Of a stretch of DNA of 64,000 nt, positions 29,962 to 40,974 are shown piece by piece. A model generated the notes under the pieces. It was not told where the DNA came from, searched no databases, and saw only the letters and a list, made by a program, of their open reading frames with translations. This stretch comes from Elusimicrobia bacterium GWD2_63_28 (lineage in GTDB: Bacteria; Elusimicrobiota; Elusimicrobia; Elusimicrobiales; UBA9959). The position numbers and the translations under genes are program-made. How positions within the stretch are numbered: the stretch's first letter is position 1; each line of letters opens with the position of its first letter. The stretch spans positions 1 through 64,000 of the forward strand of contig MGUI01000052.1 in the NCBI GenBank assembly GCA_001799895.1. Direction: 5' to 3'.

Positions 29962-31341
29962 ATGATAGAGAGAGATCTTAATCGCTACGCCGATAAATTG
30001 AGAGGCTACACCGAGCTGCGGCTGCAGGAAAACAGAAACCTCAATATTAATCTCCTGAACGGGACATTAATGGCGAATGCTAAAACCTCGCTTTTGGGGA
30101 CTTCTGTGCGGGTTTATGATAAAGGAGGTTGGGGCTTTGCGTCTGCTCCCGGGACCGGGCCCGACGCAGTTTCCTATTGTCTGGGCCGTGCTGCGGAGAA
30201 CGCCGCTTTTTTGTCCGCACGGCGCAACTCCGAAAAACTGGATATCGCGCTGCCTCCTGTCAGGTCTGAGCATGAAATTCTTACCGTAAAGCCAAGGAGC
30301 ACACAAAAAGAGATCGTCGATTTTCTGCGCGAGACAGACCAGTATATCGTTTCCAATTGCAGAAATATTTTCAGCAGGCGGCTGTGGTTCGGGGCTCTGG
30401 AGTATGAAAAAAGCCTGCTTACCTCGGAAGGCTCGTCCGTCTACTCCCTTATACCAAGGACCCGCATCGTGATCTTCCTTTCAGCTGAAAAGGACGGAAA
30501 GCGGGCCGAACTGCGCAAGATAATAGGGGCCGGCAGGCAGTTCGAGGACACCTTCGGGGACGGCGCCGCGTTGCGCTCAGAGCTGGATTCCTTATTTGAA
30601 CATCTCAATAATAAACTCGACGGCGTTTTTCCTGATGCCGGGGAATGGGACTGCGTCCTTGCCCCGGAAATGAGCGGCATGCTCGCCCACGAGGCTATAG
30701 GCCATACCGCCGAGGCGGACAGCGTTCTCTCTGGCGCGGTTACGAGGGATAAACTCGGGAAGCAGGTCGCCAGCCCTATTATCAGCCTGACGGATTTCGC
30801 TCATACAGCTTTCGGCGCGGCGTGCCCGGTGCCGATCCTGGCTGACGACGAAGGCGCTGGAGCGTCAGACGTGCCCATAATCCGTAACGGTGTGCTTGAA
30901 AGCTACCTTCACAACCGGGAATCGGCCGCGCTCATGGGAGGTAAGGCCTGCGGGAATGCCAGGGCCGCCACGTTCGGCGACGAGCCTATCATCAGGATGA
31001 GGAATACCGCGATACTTCCGGGTAAGGATAGCCTGGAAGATATGATCTCGTCTGTAGACCGGGGGTACCTGCTCCTGGGGAGCGGCGACGGGCAGGCTGA
31101 TTCCACCGGCGAGTTCTTGTTCGGCGTGACTATCGGCTATGAGATACGGAGCGGCAGGGTCGGCAGGGCGATAAAAGATACGACCATTTCCGGCTTGGCG
31201 TATGACGTCCTGAACTCGGCTAAAACGGTTTCAAACCGGTTCGAGTGGCTTAACGGCGGGATGTGCTCGAAGCCGCAGATGGTAACGGTTGGAATGGGCG
31301 GGCCGGACATACTATGCCGCGCCCGCCTGGGGGGAAAATGA
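29962..31341 (+). CDS. tldD: TldD-family metalloprotease
   Basis: 459 residues from ATG 29962; an in-frame TTG at 29923 is the alternative, as neither has a convincing ribosome site. The zinc motif HExxxH is intact (His243-Glu-Ala-Ile-Gly-His248 in 'LAHEAIGHTAEAD'), and the C-terminal Cys region 'NGGMCSKPQMVTVG' is present. TldD pairs with TldE/PmbA as a heterodimer that degrades unfolded peptides and, in microcin B17 and other RiPP pathways, removes leader peptides. tldE overlaps its stop (ATGA). Base composition is clearly less GC-rich than the nif genes just upstream, marking the left side of a possible acquired block. Confidence 0.93.
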   Translation: MIERDLNRYADKLRGYTELRLQENRNLNINLLNGTLMANAKTSLLGTSVRVYDKGGWGFASAPGTGPDAVSYCLGRAAENAAFLSARRNSEKLDIALPPVRSEHEILTVKPRSTQKEIVDFLRETDQYIVSNCRNIFSRRLWFGALEYEKSLLTSEGSSVYSLIPRTRIVIFLSAEKDGKRAELRKIIGAGRQFEDTFGDGAALRSELDSLFEHLNNKLDGVFPDAGEWDCVLAPEMSGMLAHEAIGHTAEADSVLSGAVTRDKLGKQVASPIISLTDFAHTAFGAACPVPILADDEGAGASDVPIIRNGVLESYLHNRESAALMGGKACGNARAATFGDEPIIRMRNTAILPGKDSLEDMISSVDRGYLLLGSGDGQADSTGEFLFGVTIGYEIRSGRVGRAIKDTTISGLAYDVLNSAKTVSNRFEWLNGGMCSKPQMVTVGMGGPDILCRARLGGK

Positions 31342-32633
31342 TGCCGGGAACTTCTTCCTGCCGCGCGTACGTGGAAGCCGCCCTGGCCGCCAGAGCAGAT
31401 AAAGCGCAATGTTCCCTGGCGGAAACAGAAAAGAGCCTGATGAGTTTCGAGGGCGGGTCGGTCTCGCTTTTTAAAACATCGAAAGATATCACCGGGGAGT
31501 TGACCGGAATATTTTCCGGGAGGCAGGGCAAAATATCCGTAAGCGGAGAGCCTGCCGCCGACATCGCTTCCGTGGCCGTGGAACTGGCGGCCTCCGCGGC
31601 TTCTTCACAGCCCGACCCCGCGAACGATATCTCACCGGGGCGGGAGCCCGGAGCGTTTTCATCCGGCCCGGAGCGGCCGGATACGGACGGGATGTACGGG
31701 CGGCTGCAGGAATTCCTTGCGACGGTAAAGGAGCGCTGGCCGGAAATAGGCTTCAGAACTTCATGGCTTGCCTTTGTGAACGATTCCCGGAGTTTCGCTA
31801 ATTCGAACGGGATGGCCTTGACCGCCAGAACCGGACGGTACGAACTTTTGTCTTTGTTCTGCGCCAAAAAAGACGGCCGCACCTCTTCTTTTAATCTATT
31901 CATCGGTTCGTCCAGGGATCTCGCCAGGCCGCTCCTCGAGTGGGGCGGGCTGGAAAGGCTGCTTTCCGACTCCGTCGCGCTGACCCAGGCCAGGAAGCTG
32001 GGAGAGAAATTCCAGGGGGAAATAATACTTTCACCTGAAGGCCTGACGGAGGTCCTGCGGCATTTCGCCGAGGAATTGAGCGACACCAGGATGATTTCCG
32101 GGAATAGTTCCTACAAGGGCAAACTAGGCCAGGCTATCGCCCCGGAGATTTTTACGCTGCTGTCCTCCCCCAGGTCGCCCGAACTTGCGTCCGGAGACCT
32201 GCTTACCAGGGACGGGTTTGAGACCGAGGACTTAGTACTGGTAGAAAAAGGGATACTGAAGAACTATTTGTTGAGCGGATATGGCGCAGCCAAGACTGGT
32301 TTTCCGCATAAGCCCAGTTCAGGCGGCTGCTTCAGCGTCCTGCCCGGGGAGACCGCGTTCCCTGACCTGGTGCGGAGCGTCAAGAAAGGACTTTTAGTTA
32401 CGGTGCTGGCCGGGGCGGCCCCGAACGGAAATGGCGATTTTTCCGGCATAGCCAAGAACAGTTTCTACATTGAGGACGGAAAAATCCTGTTCCCGATTTC
32501 AGACGCCGGCGTATCCGGGAATTTACGCGAGATGCTGGCGGGGCTCAGCGGCATCTCGAGGGAACGGGTCAATACCGGCGATGCCGTCCTTCCCTGGACG
32601 AAGTTCGGCGGGGTAAATATTTCCGGAATATAA
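31338..32633 (+). CDS. pmbA: TldE/PmbA-family subunit
   Basis: 431 residues from ATG 31338 (a second ATG follows directly). It has the TldE-type C-terminal beta-rich half ('LLTRDGFETEDLVLVEKG', 'GNGDFSGIAKNSFYIEDG') and no HExxxH, as expected of the non-catalytic partner. Overlap with tldD assures co-expression. A 20-residue Pro/Ser-rich insertion near residues 95-120 is unusual. The 242-base gap downstream carries a terminator at 32778-32813, so read-through to the peptide gene is limited. Confidence 0.9.
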   Translation: MMPGTSSCRAYVEAALAARADKAQCSLAETEKSLMSFEGGSVSLFKTSKDITGELTGIFSGRQGKISVSGEPAADIASVAVELAASAASSQPDPANDISPGREPGAFSSGPERPDTDGMYGRLQEFLATVKERWPEIGFRTSWLAFVNDSRSFANSNGMALTARTGRYELLSLFCAKKDGRTSSFNLFIGSSRDLARPLLEWGGLERLLSDSVALTQARKLGEKFQGEIILSPEGLTEVLRHFAEELSDTRMISGNSSYKGKLGQAIAPEIFTLLSSPRSPELASGDLLTRDGFETEDLVLVEKGILKNYLLSGYGAAKTGFPHKPSSGGCFSVLPGETAFPDLVRSVKKGLLVTVLAGAAPNGNGDFSGIAKNSFYIEDGKILFPISDAGVSGNLREMLAGLSGISRERVNTGDAVLPWTKFGGVNISGI

Positions 32634-32697
32634 ACCGGGCCCTTAGGCTCATGCGGGACTAGGCCCTTGGGCCCTCGCGGCTGCCTGCTGGGGCGTG

Positions 32698-32813
32698 TAT
32701 ACTATTCTCGTAGATTCCTTGTAATTTGGGGGATTGGCCCCAGAGTATCCACGATCCGGCCGTAACCGGATGTATCCAGGGAAAGCAAAACACTTTTTGC
32801 TTTCCCTTTTTTT
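32698..32813 (+). ncRNA. Candidate structured leader or small RNA ending in a terminator
   Basis: Within the 32634-32875 gap: a GGGCCC-rich palindromic stretch (32638-32675), a -10-like TATACT (32698-32703), then three possible hairpins. These are GGGG/CCCC near 32728-32742, ATCCGG/CCGGAT near 32752-32771, and the terminator stem at 32778-32807. A transcript starting near 32710 would be about 100 bases. It may be a small RNA, an attenuator, or merely the end of the tldD-pmbA message. It does not match the riboswitch consensus sequences I know (GEMM, cobalamin, glycine, fluoride). Confidence 0.3.
32778..32813 (+). terminator. Strong terminator between pmbA and the peptide gene
   Basis: A 13-bp stem (AGGGAAAGCAAAA / TTTTGCTTTCCCT) with a short loop and a run of seven T. 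Confidence 0.92.
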
Positions 32814-32822
32814 ATCGCCAAA

Positions 32823-32852
32823 TTGCTCACAATGCCGCAAAAGTGGTAAAAT
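32823..32852 (+). promoter_or_regulatory. Promoter of the small peptide gene
   Basis: TTGCTC (32823-32828) and TAAAAT (32847-32852) spaced by 18 bases, ten bases after the preceding terminator and 23 bases before the ATG. Shine-Dalgarno AAGGGGGA at 32862-32869. Confidence 0.7.
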
Positions 32853-32875
32853 ATAAGGGTTAAGGGGGAATTAAA

Positions 32876-33076
32876 ATGAAAATTAACGACAAAGTTCTGG
32901 TAGCTTTCCTGGTTTCAATGGGTCTCTTCTCTTCTGTTCAGGCCAGGCAGTACGTTAGCGCGTTGTCCGCTGGCGAGAAGGCCGTCCTGATGCAGGCGCA
33001 AAACTCCGGGGCGGATGTGGGTCCTGTTGAGAGCAATGCGATAAGCGGTGGTTCGGCCGGGAACGACAAAATATAA
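32876..33076 (+). CDS. Small secreted peptide, candidate substrate of the adjacent radical SAM enzyme
   Basis: 66 residues. Residues 1-23 form a Sec signal (hydrophobic 'VLVAFLVSMGLFSSVQA'); cleavage after Ala23 would leave about 43 residues starting 'RQYVSALSAGEKAVLMQAQN' and ending in a Gly/Ser/Asn-rich tail. There is no Cys or Trp; possible modification sites are Tyr26, Lys, Met and Asn/Asp. It has its own promoter and a strong ribosome site, and its stop lies 63 bases before the radical SAM start, with a GC hairpin between. This is the layout of a RiPP precursor with its maturase. A plain secreted small protein is the alternative. No similarity to a known precursor family is recognised. 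Confidence 0.65.
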   Translation: MKINDKVLVAFLVSMGLFSSVQARQYVSALSAGEKAVLMQAQNSGADVGPVESNAISGGSAGNDKI

Positions 33077-33109
33077 TACTGTCCGCAGCCGGTAATTTTG
33101 GGACAGATT

Positions 33110-33131
33110 CGCCCGGGGCAGACCCCGGGCG
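33110..33131 (+). promoter_or_regulatory. GC-rich hairpin between the peptide and radical SAM genes
   Basis: CGCCCGGGG / CCCCGGGCG, nine base pairs with a CAGA loop, followed by TATTATTTA and then the ATG eight bases after the stem. It covers the place where a ribosome site should be; none is visible. It should lower radical SAM expression relative to the peptide, by partial termination or by blocking initiation. Confidence 0.7.
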
Positions 33132-33139
33132 TATTATTT

Positions 33140-33991
33140 ATGGATAAATTTGCCATAGTGCTGGGTTACAGGTGCAACTTCAAATGTGAGCACTGTATCG
33201 TAGGCGACAAAAAAGGAACGGGCTTGACCGCCGCGGAGAAGGATCTGGTAGCGCTCACGGTGCGGCGCGGCGGGATAGGCAACCTGCTTTTCGTGGGAGG
33301 AGAGCCGACCCTCTATATTCCGGATATGAATGAGATCGTTTCCAAACTTGGAAACCCGTTGCCGAATATCCGGATGACCACTAACGGACATTTCGCTAAA
33401 AGCAAGGCCGCCGCGGTAAAAGTACTGAGGCGCATTTCCGGCCTGTCGGGAATCAATCTTTCGTACGACAGCCTTCATGAGAAATTTTTGCCTGAGGAGA
33501 ACATCGAAAATCTTTATCTGGCCTGCAAGGAAGTCGGCCTTGGGTTTGCGGTTCTCTTATCCCTCCGCTCTCCTATGGACCTTGCCCTGCTGAACAAGAT
33601 CAGGAAGGCGGGTAAATTCCGTGTTCTGATACAGAAGCTGCTGCCGGTAGGGGCCGCCAGATCCAACGATCTGGGCTTTAAATATCCCAGCTTTAACGAA
33701 GGCGCTCTTTCGATGCACTGCCCTACGCGGGATAACCTTATTTATATGTGCGGCCAGGGATTTACCGTTTGTTGCGGTGCACTCGCGTTCGGTCCCGGAG
33801 TCTCCAGAGCCGTGTTCCCTACGCTGGAAGGGCTTATGTCCAGCGATTTCTACAAGCTGGTAGCCAAGAATTCTTTTTCCGGAATGATCAGGAAATTAAG
33901 ACTTACCGGGCTGAAGTTCAAGCCGGAACATTCCGCCCCATGCGTCCTTTGCGAGTATCTGTTTAAAAGTAAATACGGGGAGCAGACCTGA
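33140..33991 (+). CDS. Radical SAM enzyme with SPASM-like C-terminal cysteines
   Basis: 283 residues from ATG 33140; an in-frame TTG at 33098 would place the hairpin inside the coding region. CxxxCxxC (Cys12, Cys16, Cys19 in 'YRCNFKCEHC') binds the SAM-cleaving [4Fe-4S] cluster; 'LLFVGGEPTLY' is the GGE motif and 'IRMTTNGHF' the next strand. The C-terminal part has further Cys: 'SMHCPTRDNLIYMCG', 'FTVCCGALAF' and 'APCVLCEYLF', suggesting an auxiliary cluster of the SPASM/twitch kind seen in peptide maturases. Its stop overlaps the next start by one base. Probable substrate is the peptide encoded upstream (inference). Confidence 0.88.
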   Translation: MDKFAIVLGYRCNFKCEHCIVGDKKGTGLTAAEKDLVALTVRRGGIGNLLFVGGEPTLYIPDMNEIVSKLGNPLPNIRMTTNGHFAKSKAAAVKVLRRISGLSGINLSYDSLHEKFLPEENIENLYLACKEVGLGFAVLLSLRSPMDLALLNKIRKAGKFRVLIQKLLPVGAARSNDLGFKYPSFNEGALSMHCPTRDNLIYMCGQGFTVCCGALAFGPGVSRAVFPTLEGLMSSDFYKLVAKNSFSGMIRKLRLTGLKFKPEHSAPCVLCEYLFKSKYGEQT

Positions 33992-35421
33992 TGTTTCGAC
34001 GCCCCGCGGTGGCAAGAGAGGCTGGCAAAAAAGGCGGACGCCCCCTCCTTGGCGCCCTGCTCTTGCTGGCGGGTATTTGCGGTTGCCGGCCCGGAGCAAA
34101 CAGTACCTGGACAGCCCTGTTTACCTATATCCCGGAAGCGGTGCATGTGGAGACAGCGGTGGACGGCACAAGTTACTATGTCTGCCGGCAGACACATGAG
34201 CCGCTCTTTCGTCATGAGGACGGCCAAAATTACGTTTCCAGAGTTTTGTCCGCATGGTCCAGGAACCTCAAACATACTGAGTTCAAGTTCTGTCCGAAAG
34301 AGCGACTTGTGTTTGAGCCGGGCCAGCCGTTCTCTCCTGATTTTCTTGAGAAGTTCCTTTCAGGGAGCACAAAGAAGTACGGCCCCGCTTTCACTCTGGA
34401 AAGATCTGGCGCATGTTCCGTAGTTCGCTTCAGTTCGCCTCAGCCAGGCTACCTGAATTATTTGAGCAGGCTCGAGAATTCCCCTTCTATATCCAACGGC
34501 AATCGCTCAAGCGGTCTGGGTCCGTACAGCATTGAAAATATCAGTAAAAGCACGGTTCTGCTTCAGAGAAAAACACCGGTCTCAAGCGGCTACAACAGAA
34601 TTGAAATCCGGCTTTTTGGAACTGGTGAAAAAGAGCATATTGACCTGCGCAAGGTCTCCGATTTTAATAAGTTGTCATCCTTTCAGCAGCCGGATTGGGT
34701 GAAATCGGAATATGCTGGTTTTGATAATATCGAGCTGAGGGTGGTCGGCCTGGCGATCAACCATCCGGATCCTCGCGTACGCAAAATGCTGTATAACTGC
34801 ATAAATCCCCGGGAATTCAGGAAGATGGCTGTGCCGTCGAGGAAAGACTATTATGATGTGCAGACGGTCCTTCCTTTGGGCGTTCCGGGCGCACTTGGGG
34901 GAACTCCGTCTCAGACCTGTTCGGTTCCAGCGGAGCTCAAGGGAACAAGTGTTATCTTCGCTAATTCCAGGACCGATAACTATGCGCAAGTGACACAGTA
35001 TGCGCATGAGTTCAAAAAAAGGACCGGGATAGAACTAGTCGTGAAGAATTTAGGGGCTGAAGAGGTGGACGCGATGTTGTTGGACCCTAAACGAAGGGGC
35101 CAGTATAATCTGGCGCTAATCGTGACCTATAACGCCAGGCAGGATCAGGAAGGTTTCTTCGTGTTTTATGTCGGCGCGAACAAGGTGATCGGGTACGTGC
35201 CGGCAAGTCTTGATCGCATGCATTTTGCCCTGGAACGGGAGACTGACCCATTAAGAAAAAAGGAATTGGCGGAAACGTTGGCTGCCGAGTTGGGCAAACA
35301 CGCGCTTGCTATCCCGCTCTACCAGACTTTCGCTAGACTCTATTACCCTCCAGGGATTAAAAACCTTTCAGTCGGAAGGGGCTTTGAGGAAATTCCGGAC
35401 ATAGGGGACCTGAGATGGTAA
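33991..35421 (+). CDS. Oligopeptide-binding-type (family 5) solute-binding lipoprotein
   Basis: 476 residues. Signal with lipobox AGICGC near residue 30. The fold follows the family 5 extracellular solute-binding proteins (DppA/OppA type): 'YYVCRQTHEPLFRHEDGQNY' near the N-terminus, 'GLGPYSIENIS' mid-way, 'DPRVRKMLYNCINPREFRKM' and 'HALAIPLYQTFARLYYPPGI' near the end. No ABC permease or ATPase genes accompany it, so it probably serves as a binding sensor rather than an importer. It overlaps the radical SAM gene (TGATG) and the sensor kinase gene (7 bases). The most AT-rich gene of the block, with codon use unlike the kinase that follows. Confidence 0.82.
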   Translation: MFRRPAVAREAGKKGGRPLLGALLLLAGICGCRPGANSTWTALFTYIPEAVHVETAVDGTSYYVCRQTHEPLFRHEDGQNYVSRVLSAWSRNLKHTEFKFCPKERLVFEPGQPFSPDFLEKFLSGSTKKYGPAFTLERSGACSVVRFSSPQPGYLNYLSRLENSPSISNGNRSSGLGPYSIENISKSTVLLQRKTPVSSGYNRIEIRLFGTGEKEHIDLRKVSDFNKLSSFQQPDWVKSEYAGFDNIELRVVGLAINHPDPRVRKMLYNCINPREFRKMAVPSRKDYYDVQTVLPLGVPGALGGTPSQTCSVPAELKGTSVIFANSRTDNYAQVTQYAHEFKKRTGIELVVKNLGAEEVDAMLLDPKRRGQYNLALIVTYNARQDQEGFFVFYVGANKVIGYVPASLDRMHFALERETDPLRKKELAETLAAELGKHALAIPLYQTFARLYYPPGIKNLSVGRGFEEIPDIGDLRW

Positions 35422-37094
35422 AACTTTTCACCCGTGTCCTCGCCTATAACTGGCGCCATTACGCGGCGGCGGTGCTGGTGTTCATTGCTTTCTGGCAGGG
35501 CTTCTCCGCCTTTTCCGCCGTGCGGGTGGCGGACGACAAGCTGCTGACCGCCATGCGGCAGAACGCGGCCTATTTCGAGAAGGCCTTCCTCGAAGGCGAC
35601 GTGTTCGAGACCCAGCGCATCATGTGGCGCATCAAGAACGAAAACGTTAAGCGCATTACCTTTCACCCCGTGCAGTTCGATGGCAGCCGCTGGATCTTCA
35701 AAGAAGCCATAGTCGGCAACCTCTACGACCGGCCGCGCGCGCAGATAATCCACGAGGTGCCCTTTGTTTCCAACGGCGCCGAGCTGGGCCAACTGGAATA
35801 CGTGATAGACCTGGTGGACGTGAACGCCGCGGTGTTCGGGCAGAACTATGTCCTGTTCATCACCGTGGTGTTCTTCTTTCTGGGGCTGCTGATACTTTCC
35901 AACATGGGCGCCATTCAGACCCTGGCAGCCATAGAGCGCTCCGTGAATGAGATTAATTCCATAACCGATTCAGGCAAAAGCGACATTATCCGGGAATCAA
36001 TTAAAAAGAACATAGCGCGGCTGCCGGCGGGCATTATCGGCACGCCGTTCGCGCAGATGACCGAGCGCATGAGCGGCGCCCTGGAGCAGGCTGCCCGGCT
36101 GGAAAGCGAGCTGGCCGTCAGCAAGGCCATGTCCGACCTGGCCGCGCAGGTGGCGCACGATATCCGCTCGCCGCTGGCGGCGCTGGGCGCCGCGGCCAAG
36201 GGACTGGAGATGCCGGCGGACCAGCGCACGCTGATAGACGGTTCCATCGGGCGCATGCAGGGCATAGCCGACGACCTGCTGCAGCGCTACCGCGCCCCGG
36301 GCGCGGCGGCCAAGCCCAAAATGGAAACCTGCGCCCTGGCCGGGCTTATCGAGCAGGTGCTGGCCGAGAAGCGCATACAGCACAAGGACAAGGCCGGCGT
36401 GAAGATAGATTTCAGCGCCGGGACGGACGGGTTTAAGGCCGCCGTGGACCCCAAAGAGCTGCAACGCATTATTTCCAATCTCGTGAACAACTCGGTGGAG
36501 GCCTTCGCCGGCCCCGGCGCGGTCAGGGTCGGCCTGGCGGCCACCGACGGGAAAGTATTGATCGAAATAAAAGACGATGGCAAAGGCATACCTCCCGAAA
36601 TATTGGCCAAGCTCGGTCAGAAGGGCGAGACGCACGGCAAGGCCGGCGGTACTGGCCTGGGCCTTTACCACGCCCGCACTTCGGTAGAGGCCTGGGGCGG
36701 CAGCCTCAAGATAGAGTCCGAACCCGGCAAAGGCACCGCCGTGACCCTCACGCTGCCGGCCGCGGCCAAGCCGGCCGCCGGCCTGCGCGCCGTGCTGCTC
36801 GACGACGACGCTTTGGTGCACATGAACTGGCGGATGGCCGCCAAGGCCGCCGGCGCCGAGCTGAAGTCTTTTAAAACCCCGCAGGAGTTCGCGGAGGCCG
36901 CGGGCACGCTGCCGCGGGACATTCCTTTATATATAGATTCCGAACTGGGCAACGATATCAAGGGCGAGGACATCGCCGTAGACCTGCACGAGAAGGGCTT
37001 TACCGACATTACCATGGCCACCGGCCACAGCCCCGAAAAATTCTCCGGCCTCCCCTGGCTGAAAGTCGCCGGCAAAGAGCCCCCTTGGTCTTAA
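35415..37094 (+). CDS. Membrane sensor histidine kinase with C-terminal receiver-like domain
   Basis: 559 residues. TM segments at about 16-36 and 143-163 flank a 105-residue periplasmic sensor domain. HisKA with His248 ('QVAHDIRSPLAAL'), then HATPase_c with 'NLVNNSVEAF', 'DDGKGIPPEI' and 'GGTGLGLYHA'. A C-terminal receiver-like domain (about 455-559) has the acidic cluster 'LLDDDALVH' and candidate phospho-Asp508 ('LYIDSELG'). Its start lies inside the end of the binding-protein gene, so the lipoprotein is a likely ligand-sensing partner. GC content returns to the window norm here, unlike the genes before it. Confidence 0.9.
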   Translation: MVKLFTRVLAYNWRHYAAAVLVFIAFWQGFSAFSAVRVADDKLLTAMRQNAAYFEKAFLEGDVFETQRIMWRIKNENVKRITFHPVQFDGSRWIFKEAIVGNLYDRPRAQIIHEVPFVSNGAELGQLEYVIDLVDVNAAVFGQNYVLFITVVFFFLGLLILSNMGAIQTLAAIERSVNEINSITDSGKSDIIRESIKKNIARLPAGIIGTPFAQMTERMSGALEQAARLESELAVSKAMSDLAAQVAHDIRSPLAALGAAAKGLEMPADQRTLIDGSIGRMQGIADDLLQRYRAPGAAAKPKMETCALAGLIEQVLAEKRIQHKDKAGVKIDFSAGTDGFKAAVDPKELQRIISNLVNNSVEAFAGPGAVRVGLAATDGKVLIEIKDDGKGIPPEILAKLGQKGETHGKAGGTGLGLYHARTSVEAWGGSLKIESEPGKGTAVTLTLPAAAKPAAGLRAVLLDDDALVHMNWRMAAKAAGAELKSFKTPQEFAEAAGTLPRDIPLYIDSELGNDIKGEDIAVDLHEKGFTDITMATGHSPEKFSGLPWLKVAGKEPPWS

Positions 37095-40878: not shown

Positions 40879-40952
40879 GGGCCCATAGCTCAGTTGGTTA
40901 GAGCAAGCGACTCATAATCGCTGGGTCGTAGGTTCAAGTCCTACTGGGCCCA
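40879..40952 (+). tRNA. tRNA-Ile2 (CAU anticodon)
   Basis: 74 bases. The acceptor stem GGGCCCA pairs with TGGGCCC, discriminator A; no CCA encoded. The anticodon loop CTCATAA carries CAT. The anticodon arm and flanking sequence (GACTCATAATCG) match the lysidine-modified isoleucine tRNA reading AUA rather than methionine tRNAs; confirmation needs an identity-element scan. TAGAAT at 40847-40852 is a plausible -10 box. Confidence 0.9.
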
Positions 40953-40974
40953 GTTTTTTATCGGTTAGAAAAGT

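Follow-up and report, generated by a model that had tools for sequence, protein, structure and literature searches.

Several described systems resemble parts of the locus reported here. In the epeXEPAB (yydFGHIJ) locus of Bacillus, a short ribosomal precursor gene lies directly 5' of the gene for a radical S-adenosylmethionine (SAM) enzyme. Periplasmic binding proteins are coupled to membrane hybrid kinases in LuxP/LuxQ and other such systems, and in polymorphic pheromone loci of the ComQXPA type the variable precursor, its modifying enzyme and the receptor evolve jointly. The locus compared with them occupies positions 29962-37094 of the window, a stretch of 64,000 nucleotides (contig MGUI01000052.1) from Elusimicrobia bacterium GWD2_63_28, an uncultured Elusimicrobiota genome of 3.29 Mb in 74 contigs (G000). 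The nearest related records in the genome scan are Elusimicrobia metagenome-assembled genomes (MAGs) such as GWA2_61_42, GWA2_62_23 and GWB2_63_16, and all results are based on MAG sequence. Behind a 2'-dG-II riboswitch, the locus encodes a short peptide, an EpeE-like radical SAM enzyme, a binding protein and a kinase, an arrangement termed the type I cassette. It is read here as a riboswitch-gated, self-contained peptide-signalling cassette, with a probability of about 0.58. This reading is based on the linkage of peptide with enzyme and of binding protein with kinase, the riboswitch in cassettes of types I to III, the overlap of P1 with a terminator, the homology of the enzyme to EpeE, the family-5 solute-binding protein (SBP-5) fold, the distance correlations and the contrast in GC content at third codon positions (GC3).

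With epeXEPAB the cassette shares the position of the precursor gene, directly 5' of the gene for a homologous radical SAM enzyme. It differs in an unrelated precursor with a Sec-type signal, in the presence of binding protein, kinase and riboswitch control, and in its phylum; neither the EpeP membrane protease nor the EpeAB ATP-binding cassette (ABC) exporter belongs to the unit conserved across about 30 loci. The cassette is like LuxP/LuxQ in combining a binding protein with a membrane hybrid kinase, a pairing suggested here by gene overlap and a conserved periplasmic domain; the binding protein is of family 5 (peptide type), a candidate ligand gene lies in the operon and no sequence link is claimed. 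As in ComQXPA-type loci, variable precursor, modifying enzyme and receptor evolve together, but the kinase is constant, the binding protein is the variable receptor and the envelope is diderm. With known 2'-dG-II riboswitches (RF03165) the locus shares the aptamer and the kinds of genes found downstream: a 'signal receiver domain' and ComEC have been named among the latter (PMC8872408), in line with the hybrid kinase and metallo-beta-lactamase genes found here. A literature search did not find a link of this riboswitch to a peptide, radical SAM, binding protein and kinase cassette or to Elusimicrobiota, but the original 2'-dG-II report lay outside that search and an earlier mention of some of these links is possible.

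The initial annotation had treated peptide, radical SAM enzyme, binding protein and kinase as one unit and had staked this on a short peptide gene recurring beside homologous enzymes, with binding protein and kinase downstream. Codon-model gene calling was dropped, since the low GC3 of the cassette genes caused it to miss most of them; they were called by homology instead. A search of 61 genomes with the radical SAM protein yielded about 20 strong homologues, sharply set apart and all from one genus; a phylum search supplied eight more loci from further genera of this family and one from a second family, and the genome scan supplied RBG_16_66_12 and two Bdellovibrionota genomes. Within the 61-genome set, a homologous gene for a peptide of 60-70 amino acids (aa) lies directly 5' of the radical SAM gene wherever the contig extends, and the peptide profile (A1) finds the cassette peptide genes and essentially nothing else. 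One weak profile match (G006:C87) is a fragment with a stop and may be a relic. Across the Elusimicrobiota loci having upstream DNA, 28 of 29 carry a profile-matching peptide immediately upstream of the enzyme; the exception, L263, has a 68-aa open reading frame (ORF) with a signal-like N-terminus at the same position. The binding lipoprotein and hybrid histidine kinase follow downstream in 29 of 30 testable loci, the two Bdellovibrionota genomes included, so that the unit as first proposed holds and its order is kept across two phyla. Since the peptide gene was found only beside the cassette enzyme in the 61 genomes, the gene order is far beyond chance.

In Bdellovibrionota, Halobacteriovorax marinus and a Bacteriovoracaceae MAG have the order signal-peptide-bearing ORF, radical SAM gene, GNAT-like gene, binding protein gene and kinase gene. 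Their radical SAM enzyme is about 30% identical to that of Elusimicrobiota, and the kinase match extends over the sensor region. The Halobacteriovorax precursor resembles the Elusimicrobiota peptides no more than suggestively, 16 of 835 scored shuffles being equally good. This precursor-like protein of Halobacteriovorax marinus (L329:5020-5982, 5' of the radical SAM gene) is about 312 aa long and contains several xIxW repeats (TIAWAV, TIAWVV, TITWGM, VIAWTK, AISWAR), resembling a multi-core precursor.

The initial annotation had given the peptide gene its own promoter. A TATACTAT-type box is indeed present, and similar boxes lie a few bases 5' of most of the 26 cassette-linked riboswitch copies, while a consensus scan found no sigma-70 pair; what had been overlooked is the 2'-dG-II riboswitch and terminator just downstream. 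The riboswitch separates tldE from the peptide gene and is a member of RF03165 by its Rfam covariance model (86.1 bits, gathering score 60, E 1.2e-21). Its pocket holds C51 and the ligand-pairing cytosine (GUAUCCAC in J2/3, UCCAG in J3/1), as in known members; cytosine 51 confers nucleoside selectivity and the second cytosine pairs with the ligand (PMC8872408). The predicted ligand in vivo is 2'-deoxyguanosine or a near relative. Directly 3' of the aptamer lies a terminator whose 5' arm shares 7 nucleotides (nt) with the 3' strand of P1. This overlap recurs in all 26 cassette-linked copies, compared with 55 of 1040 with shuffled downstream sequence; because of it, ligand binding should block termination, and the riboswitch is predicted to be an ON switch. 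A riboswitch above the cut-off lies 5' of 21 of the 26 assessable type I Elusimicrobiota cassettes. In one further genome (G003), a contig end (C28; L359:4190-4422) carries tldDE and a riboswitch with unrelated sequence in place of its 3' half, and the cassette (L032) begins at another contig end without a riboswitch; an insertion has possibly split a tldDE-riboswitch-cassette unit.

The peptide gene is protein-coding and under purifying selection, with nonsynonymous divergence (dN) of 0.2-0.4 against synonymous divergence (dS) of roughly 2-3 in diverged pairs. Majority residues in the alignment have a frequency of 0.74 in columns 1-23, 0.54 in columns 24-40 and 0.26 in the tail. Searches of Pfam and NCBIfam gave no match for the 66-aa peptide, and none as an EpeX/YydF-like precursor. 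The family profile of the enzyme matches the YydG/EpeE structures 8ai1-8ai6 over its full length. Its best NCBIfam model is YydG (TIGR04078, 3e-16), with a score of 60 bits far below the curated cut-off of 300, which makes it an EpeE/YydG relative rather than a member by that rule; a PHROGs search returned generic radical SAM matches only. In the alignment, invariant Cys211 falls on the second cysteine of the CC pair in EpeE, by our reading of the construct numbering Cys223, which has been proposed to complete epimerisation (PMC8326336), and invariant C194, C268 and C271 likewise align with EpeE cysteines. Given the full-length match and the aligned cysteines, epimerisation is the leading but unproven chemistry. 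In keeping with the initial annotation, the enzyme is related to one from a known pathway of ribosomally synthesised and post-translationally modified peptides (RiPPs); EpeE-like describes it better than SPASM-like.

The binding lipoprotein has no Pfam match, PF00496 included. Its AlphaFold model (predicted local distance difference test, pLDDT, 83) has the SBP-5 fold of OppA/NikA (Foldseek E 3.5e-22 to SBP family 5), and among its matches are a structure of OppA with a Phr pentapeptide and one of AapF with a signalling molecule. The binding protein and kinase genes of the window have no permease gene between them, as had been noticed at the outset, and the membrane kinase with a periplasmic sensor was also correctly recognised. 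Pfam finds HisKA and HATPase_c in the kinase and no receiver; nevertheless, the C-terminus (aa 456-559) has a receiver-like beta-alpha fold (pLDDT about 87) with the expected DDD/D/T/K residues (acidic, Asp, Thr, Lys) in sequence and model, which together make it a hybrid kinase. As the whole-kinase model is poor (pLDDT 60, with only the C-terminal half reliable), Foldseek matches outside the catalytic core were ignored. In one genome (L080:8522-11604), a type I binding protein and kinase occur without family peptide or enzyme and with a PAP2-like gene 5', possibly as a receiver-only locus.

The cassette genes have diverged unequally. Across 12 loci, few enough that the tests are indicative, the peptide tails are on average 22% identical, the binding proteins 39%, the enzymes 43% and the kinases 75% (catalytic part 75%), with 88% for the kinase periplasmic domain. 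Distances of peptide, enzyme and binding protein intercorrelate (r 0.47-0.70, p 0.0002-0.005), whereas they do not correlate with the kinase (r -0.10 and -0.21). GC3 is 0.53-0.56 in the cassette genes against 0.74 in the kinase, and in the window it shifts from 0.58 to 0.81 at the junction of binding protein and kinase genes. The metallo-beta-lactamase, used as a species marker, correlates better with the kinase (r 0.56) than with the enzyme (0.04); the CtpA marker separates the two less (0.22 and 0.19). Because peptide, enzyme and binding protein diverge, co-vary and have low GC3 while the kinase and its periplasmic domain are conserved, the pattern suggests that peptide, enzyme and receptor form an exchangeable cassette placed before a constant kinase, which would dock all receptors on its periplasmic face.

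From these data we infer the modification chemistry, export, processing, binding and signalling output as follows. A rise in 2'-deoxyguanosine, or a near relative, would fold the aptamer; the folded P1 would prevent the overlapping terminator, and the genes for peptide, enzyme, receptor and kinase would be transcribed. The radical SAM enzyme would modify the precursor in the cytoplasm, with epimerisation of residues to the D-form as the likeliest change, before Sec exports the peptide and its signal sequence is cleaved off. The family-5 lipoprotein would capture the mature peptide, of about 40 aa or a fragment of this, and the loaded lipoprotein would dock on the conserved periplasmic domain of the kinase, which would signal via its receiver; binding protein and kinase would thus sense a self-made peptide. 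A bolder form of this proposal, which we regard as tentative and rather more doubtful than the cassette reading itself, is a polymorphic, kin-specific diderm pheromone: a deoxyguanosine-gated, secreted D-amino-acid peptide, swapped jointly with its receptor as alleles in front of the constant kinase and coupled to DNA turnover or release from lysing neighbours. Such a system would form a new class of cell-cell signalling in bacteria.

Several observations weigh against the signalling cassette. Its parts can separate: L037 lacks the kinase, and one genome (G028, L080) has binding protein and kinase without a peptide of the type I family. An intact riboswitch is missing from 5 of the 26 assessable type I cassettes (a remnant in L049; none in L037, L260, L263 and L317) and from those of Bdellovibrionota. 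The peptide tail alone correlates weakly, and in the Mantel test not significantly, with the binding protein (r 0.30, p 0.07). The peptide is unlike EpeX both in sequence and in its Sec-type signal, Asp210 of EpeE (a position apparently altered in 8ai6) is not conserved in the cassette enzyme, and no dedicated response regulator was identified.

The product could instead be an epipeptide-like antimicrobial, with binding protein and kinase detecting its own or a competitor's versions to protect the envelope, comparable to LiaRS for EpeX of B. subtilis. The enzyme is homologous to EpeE, variable peptide tails fit competition, and EpeX inhibits Gram-positive bacteria and induces LiaRS (PMC8326336). 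This explanation is nevertheless judged unlikely: the conserved unit has no ABC exporter/immunity pair or EpeP-type protease, the polar tails rich in Gly, Ser and Asp do not look membrane-active, and cassettes without a radical SAM gene still keep peptide, binding protein and kinase. Slightly less probable still is that oligopeptides or muropeptides from outside are what binding protein and kinase sense, and that the short secreted protein is an accessory kinase regulator and not the ligand. Nutrient or murein peptides are frequent ligands of SBP-5 proteins (OppA, DppE and MppA are in the Foldseek list), the conserved N-terminal region of the peptide could serve as a membrane regulator, and the riboswitch regulon includes genes of the FtsX-EnvC-CtpA type; however, peptide divergence follows enzyme and binding protein and not the kinase, the opposite of what a kinase regulator would show, and the locus has no other evident enzyme substrate. 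That the genes are mere neighbours at an insertion site beside a conserved kinase would account for their foreign-like GC3 and for a kinase that follows species markers, but is very improbable and already contradicted by conservation of the same order, kinase included, at about 30% identity in another phylum, and disfavored by overlapping start and stop codons and by three cassette types with a common logic.

The type I cassette is one part of a wider regulon (L155-L234 and L266-L305). The riboswitch was found in all 32 genomes of the genus, with 1-6 copies each, and above the cut-off in 27 of 199 genomes of the phylum sample, in families labelled f1, f7 and f8. The genus provided 82 loci for a survey of the genes downstream of it. 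In 27 of these, the gene for a secreted ComEC-like metallo-beta-lactamase protein follows; its GGAGGTGGAT start region is complementary to ATCCACCTCC of the aptamer, and the gene is apparently under translational control. Another 27 loci carry an operon for an uncharacterised secreted protein and FtsX-like, EnvC/M23, CtpA-like and TsaD-like proteins (the names FtsX, CtpA and TsaD being assigned by sequence reading). The third set consists of peptide-sensing cassettes of types I, II and III. Type II has a SPASM-like radical SAM enzyme, a different short signal-bearing peptide (MKS.IK.CCLVVLAM.PI.AV.FAA...), an SBP family-5 protein (PF00496, 4e-29) and a kinase paralogue. In type III, riboswitch, short signal-bearing peptide, SBP-5-like binding protein and kinase occur with no evident radical SAM gene. 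The cassette logic also extends to families f7 and f8 (L266, L278, L289). A further part of the regulon is seen in L298, L166, L169, L171, L201 and L208, where the riboswitch precedes genes for an uncharacterised protein of about 200 aa and, by sequence reading, a CPBP-like (CAAX-type) membrane protease.

All six ORFs of the locus were confirmed together with their overlaps (Table 1): 4 nt between tldD and tldE, 1 nt between the radical SAM and lipoprotein genes (at 33991) and 7 nt between the lipoprotein and kinase genes, as first described. Among the window proteins, Pfam recognises TldD/TldE, the radical SAM enzyme and the histidine kinase. TldD/TldE, which the initial annotation had counted into the peptide system, were rejected as a core component after a neighbourhood survey: they adjoin the cassette in only 5 of about 29 loci (the window, L031, L036, L039 and L255), and related pairs also occur away from it. 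As they lie 5' of riboswitch and terminator, they are probably a separate transcription unit. Many other type I loci have a GNAT-like gene (by sequence reading; no Pfam match) between the enzyme and binding protein genes, and nitroreductase (L040-L042, L045), serine beta-lactamase-like (L043, L046) and transglutaminase-like (L032) genes lie in or beside some cassettes; TldD/TldE and these accessory enzymes may tailor the peptide in some strains. Strong hairpins in the gap between peptide and enzyme genes, as in the window, were seen only in L031, L033, L036, L255 and L259, most other loci having none. An Rfam 'Plastid-ycf2' match elsewhere in the window (40879-40953, minus strand) is a library artefact, lying antisense to a tRNA gene.

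Table 1. Positions of the features of the type I locus in the window and of the type II and III loci
Feature	Position	Strand	Remarks
TldD-like metallopeptidase subunit	29962..31341	+	Pfam PF19289, 1.6e-47; facultative neighbour
TldE/PmbA-like subunit	31338..32633	+	Pfam PF19289, 1.9e-39; best NCBIfam model PmbA
Promoter -10-like box, TATACTAT	32698..32705	+	similar boxes 5' of most cassette riboswitches
2'-dG-II riboswitch aptamer	32714..32784	+	RF03165
Intrinsic terminator	32778..32814	+	5' arm overlaps aptamer P1
Precursor peptide, 66 aa	32876..33076	+	conserved family A1; purifying selection
Predicted Sec signal (...SVQA/RQYV)	32876..32944	+	sequence conservation
Stem-loop between peptide and enzyme genes, candidate attenuator	33110..33131	+	9 G-C pairs
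EpeE/YydG-like radical SAM enzyme, predicted peptide epimerase	33140..33991	+	PDB 8ai1 (YydG), 1.3e-25
Family-5 solute-binding lipoprotein, predicted peptide receptor	33991..35421	+	AlphaFold and Foldseek
Membrane hybrid histidine kinase, periplasmic domain and C-terminal receiver	35415..37094	+	Pfam HisKA and HATPase_c
Kinase periplasmic sensor region, aa 40-140	35532..35834	+	most conserved part of the kinase
Type II loci behind 2'-dG-II riboswitch	L080:2923-7551 (minus), L085:2954-7595, L159, L289, L300		
Type III loci	L161, L162, L088, L089, L090, L266, L278		

Taken as a signalling cassette, the locus appears to represent a form of peptide signalling not described before in bacteria, in which an operon found across two phyla joins an epipeptide-type enzyme to a peptide-type receptor and a kinase. 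To our knowledge, ribosomal peptide pheromones, though familiar from Gram-positive bacteria, are scarcely known from diderm ones, and it has hitherto been unclear what 2'-dG-II riboswitches are for. The Elusimicrobiota riboswitch regulon with its several peptide-sensing cassettes offers a testable context for both questions. If the proposal is true, peptide communication would be tied to the sensing of a product of DNA breakdown, and epimerised RiPPs would serve as signals as well as antimicrobials.

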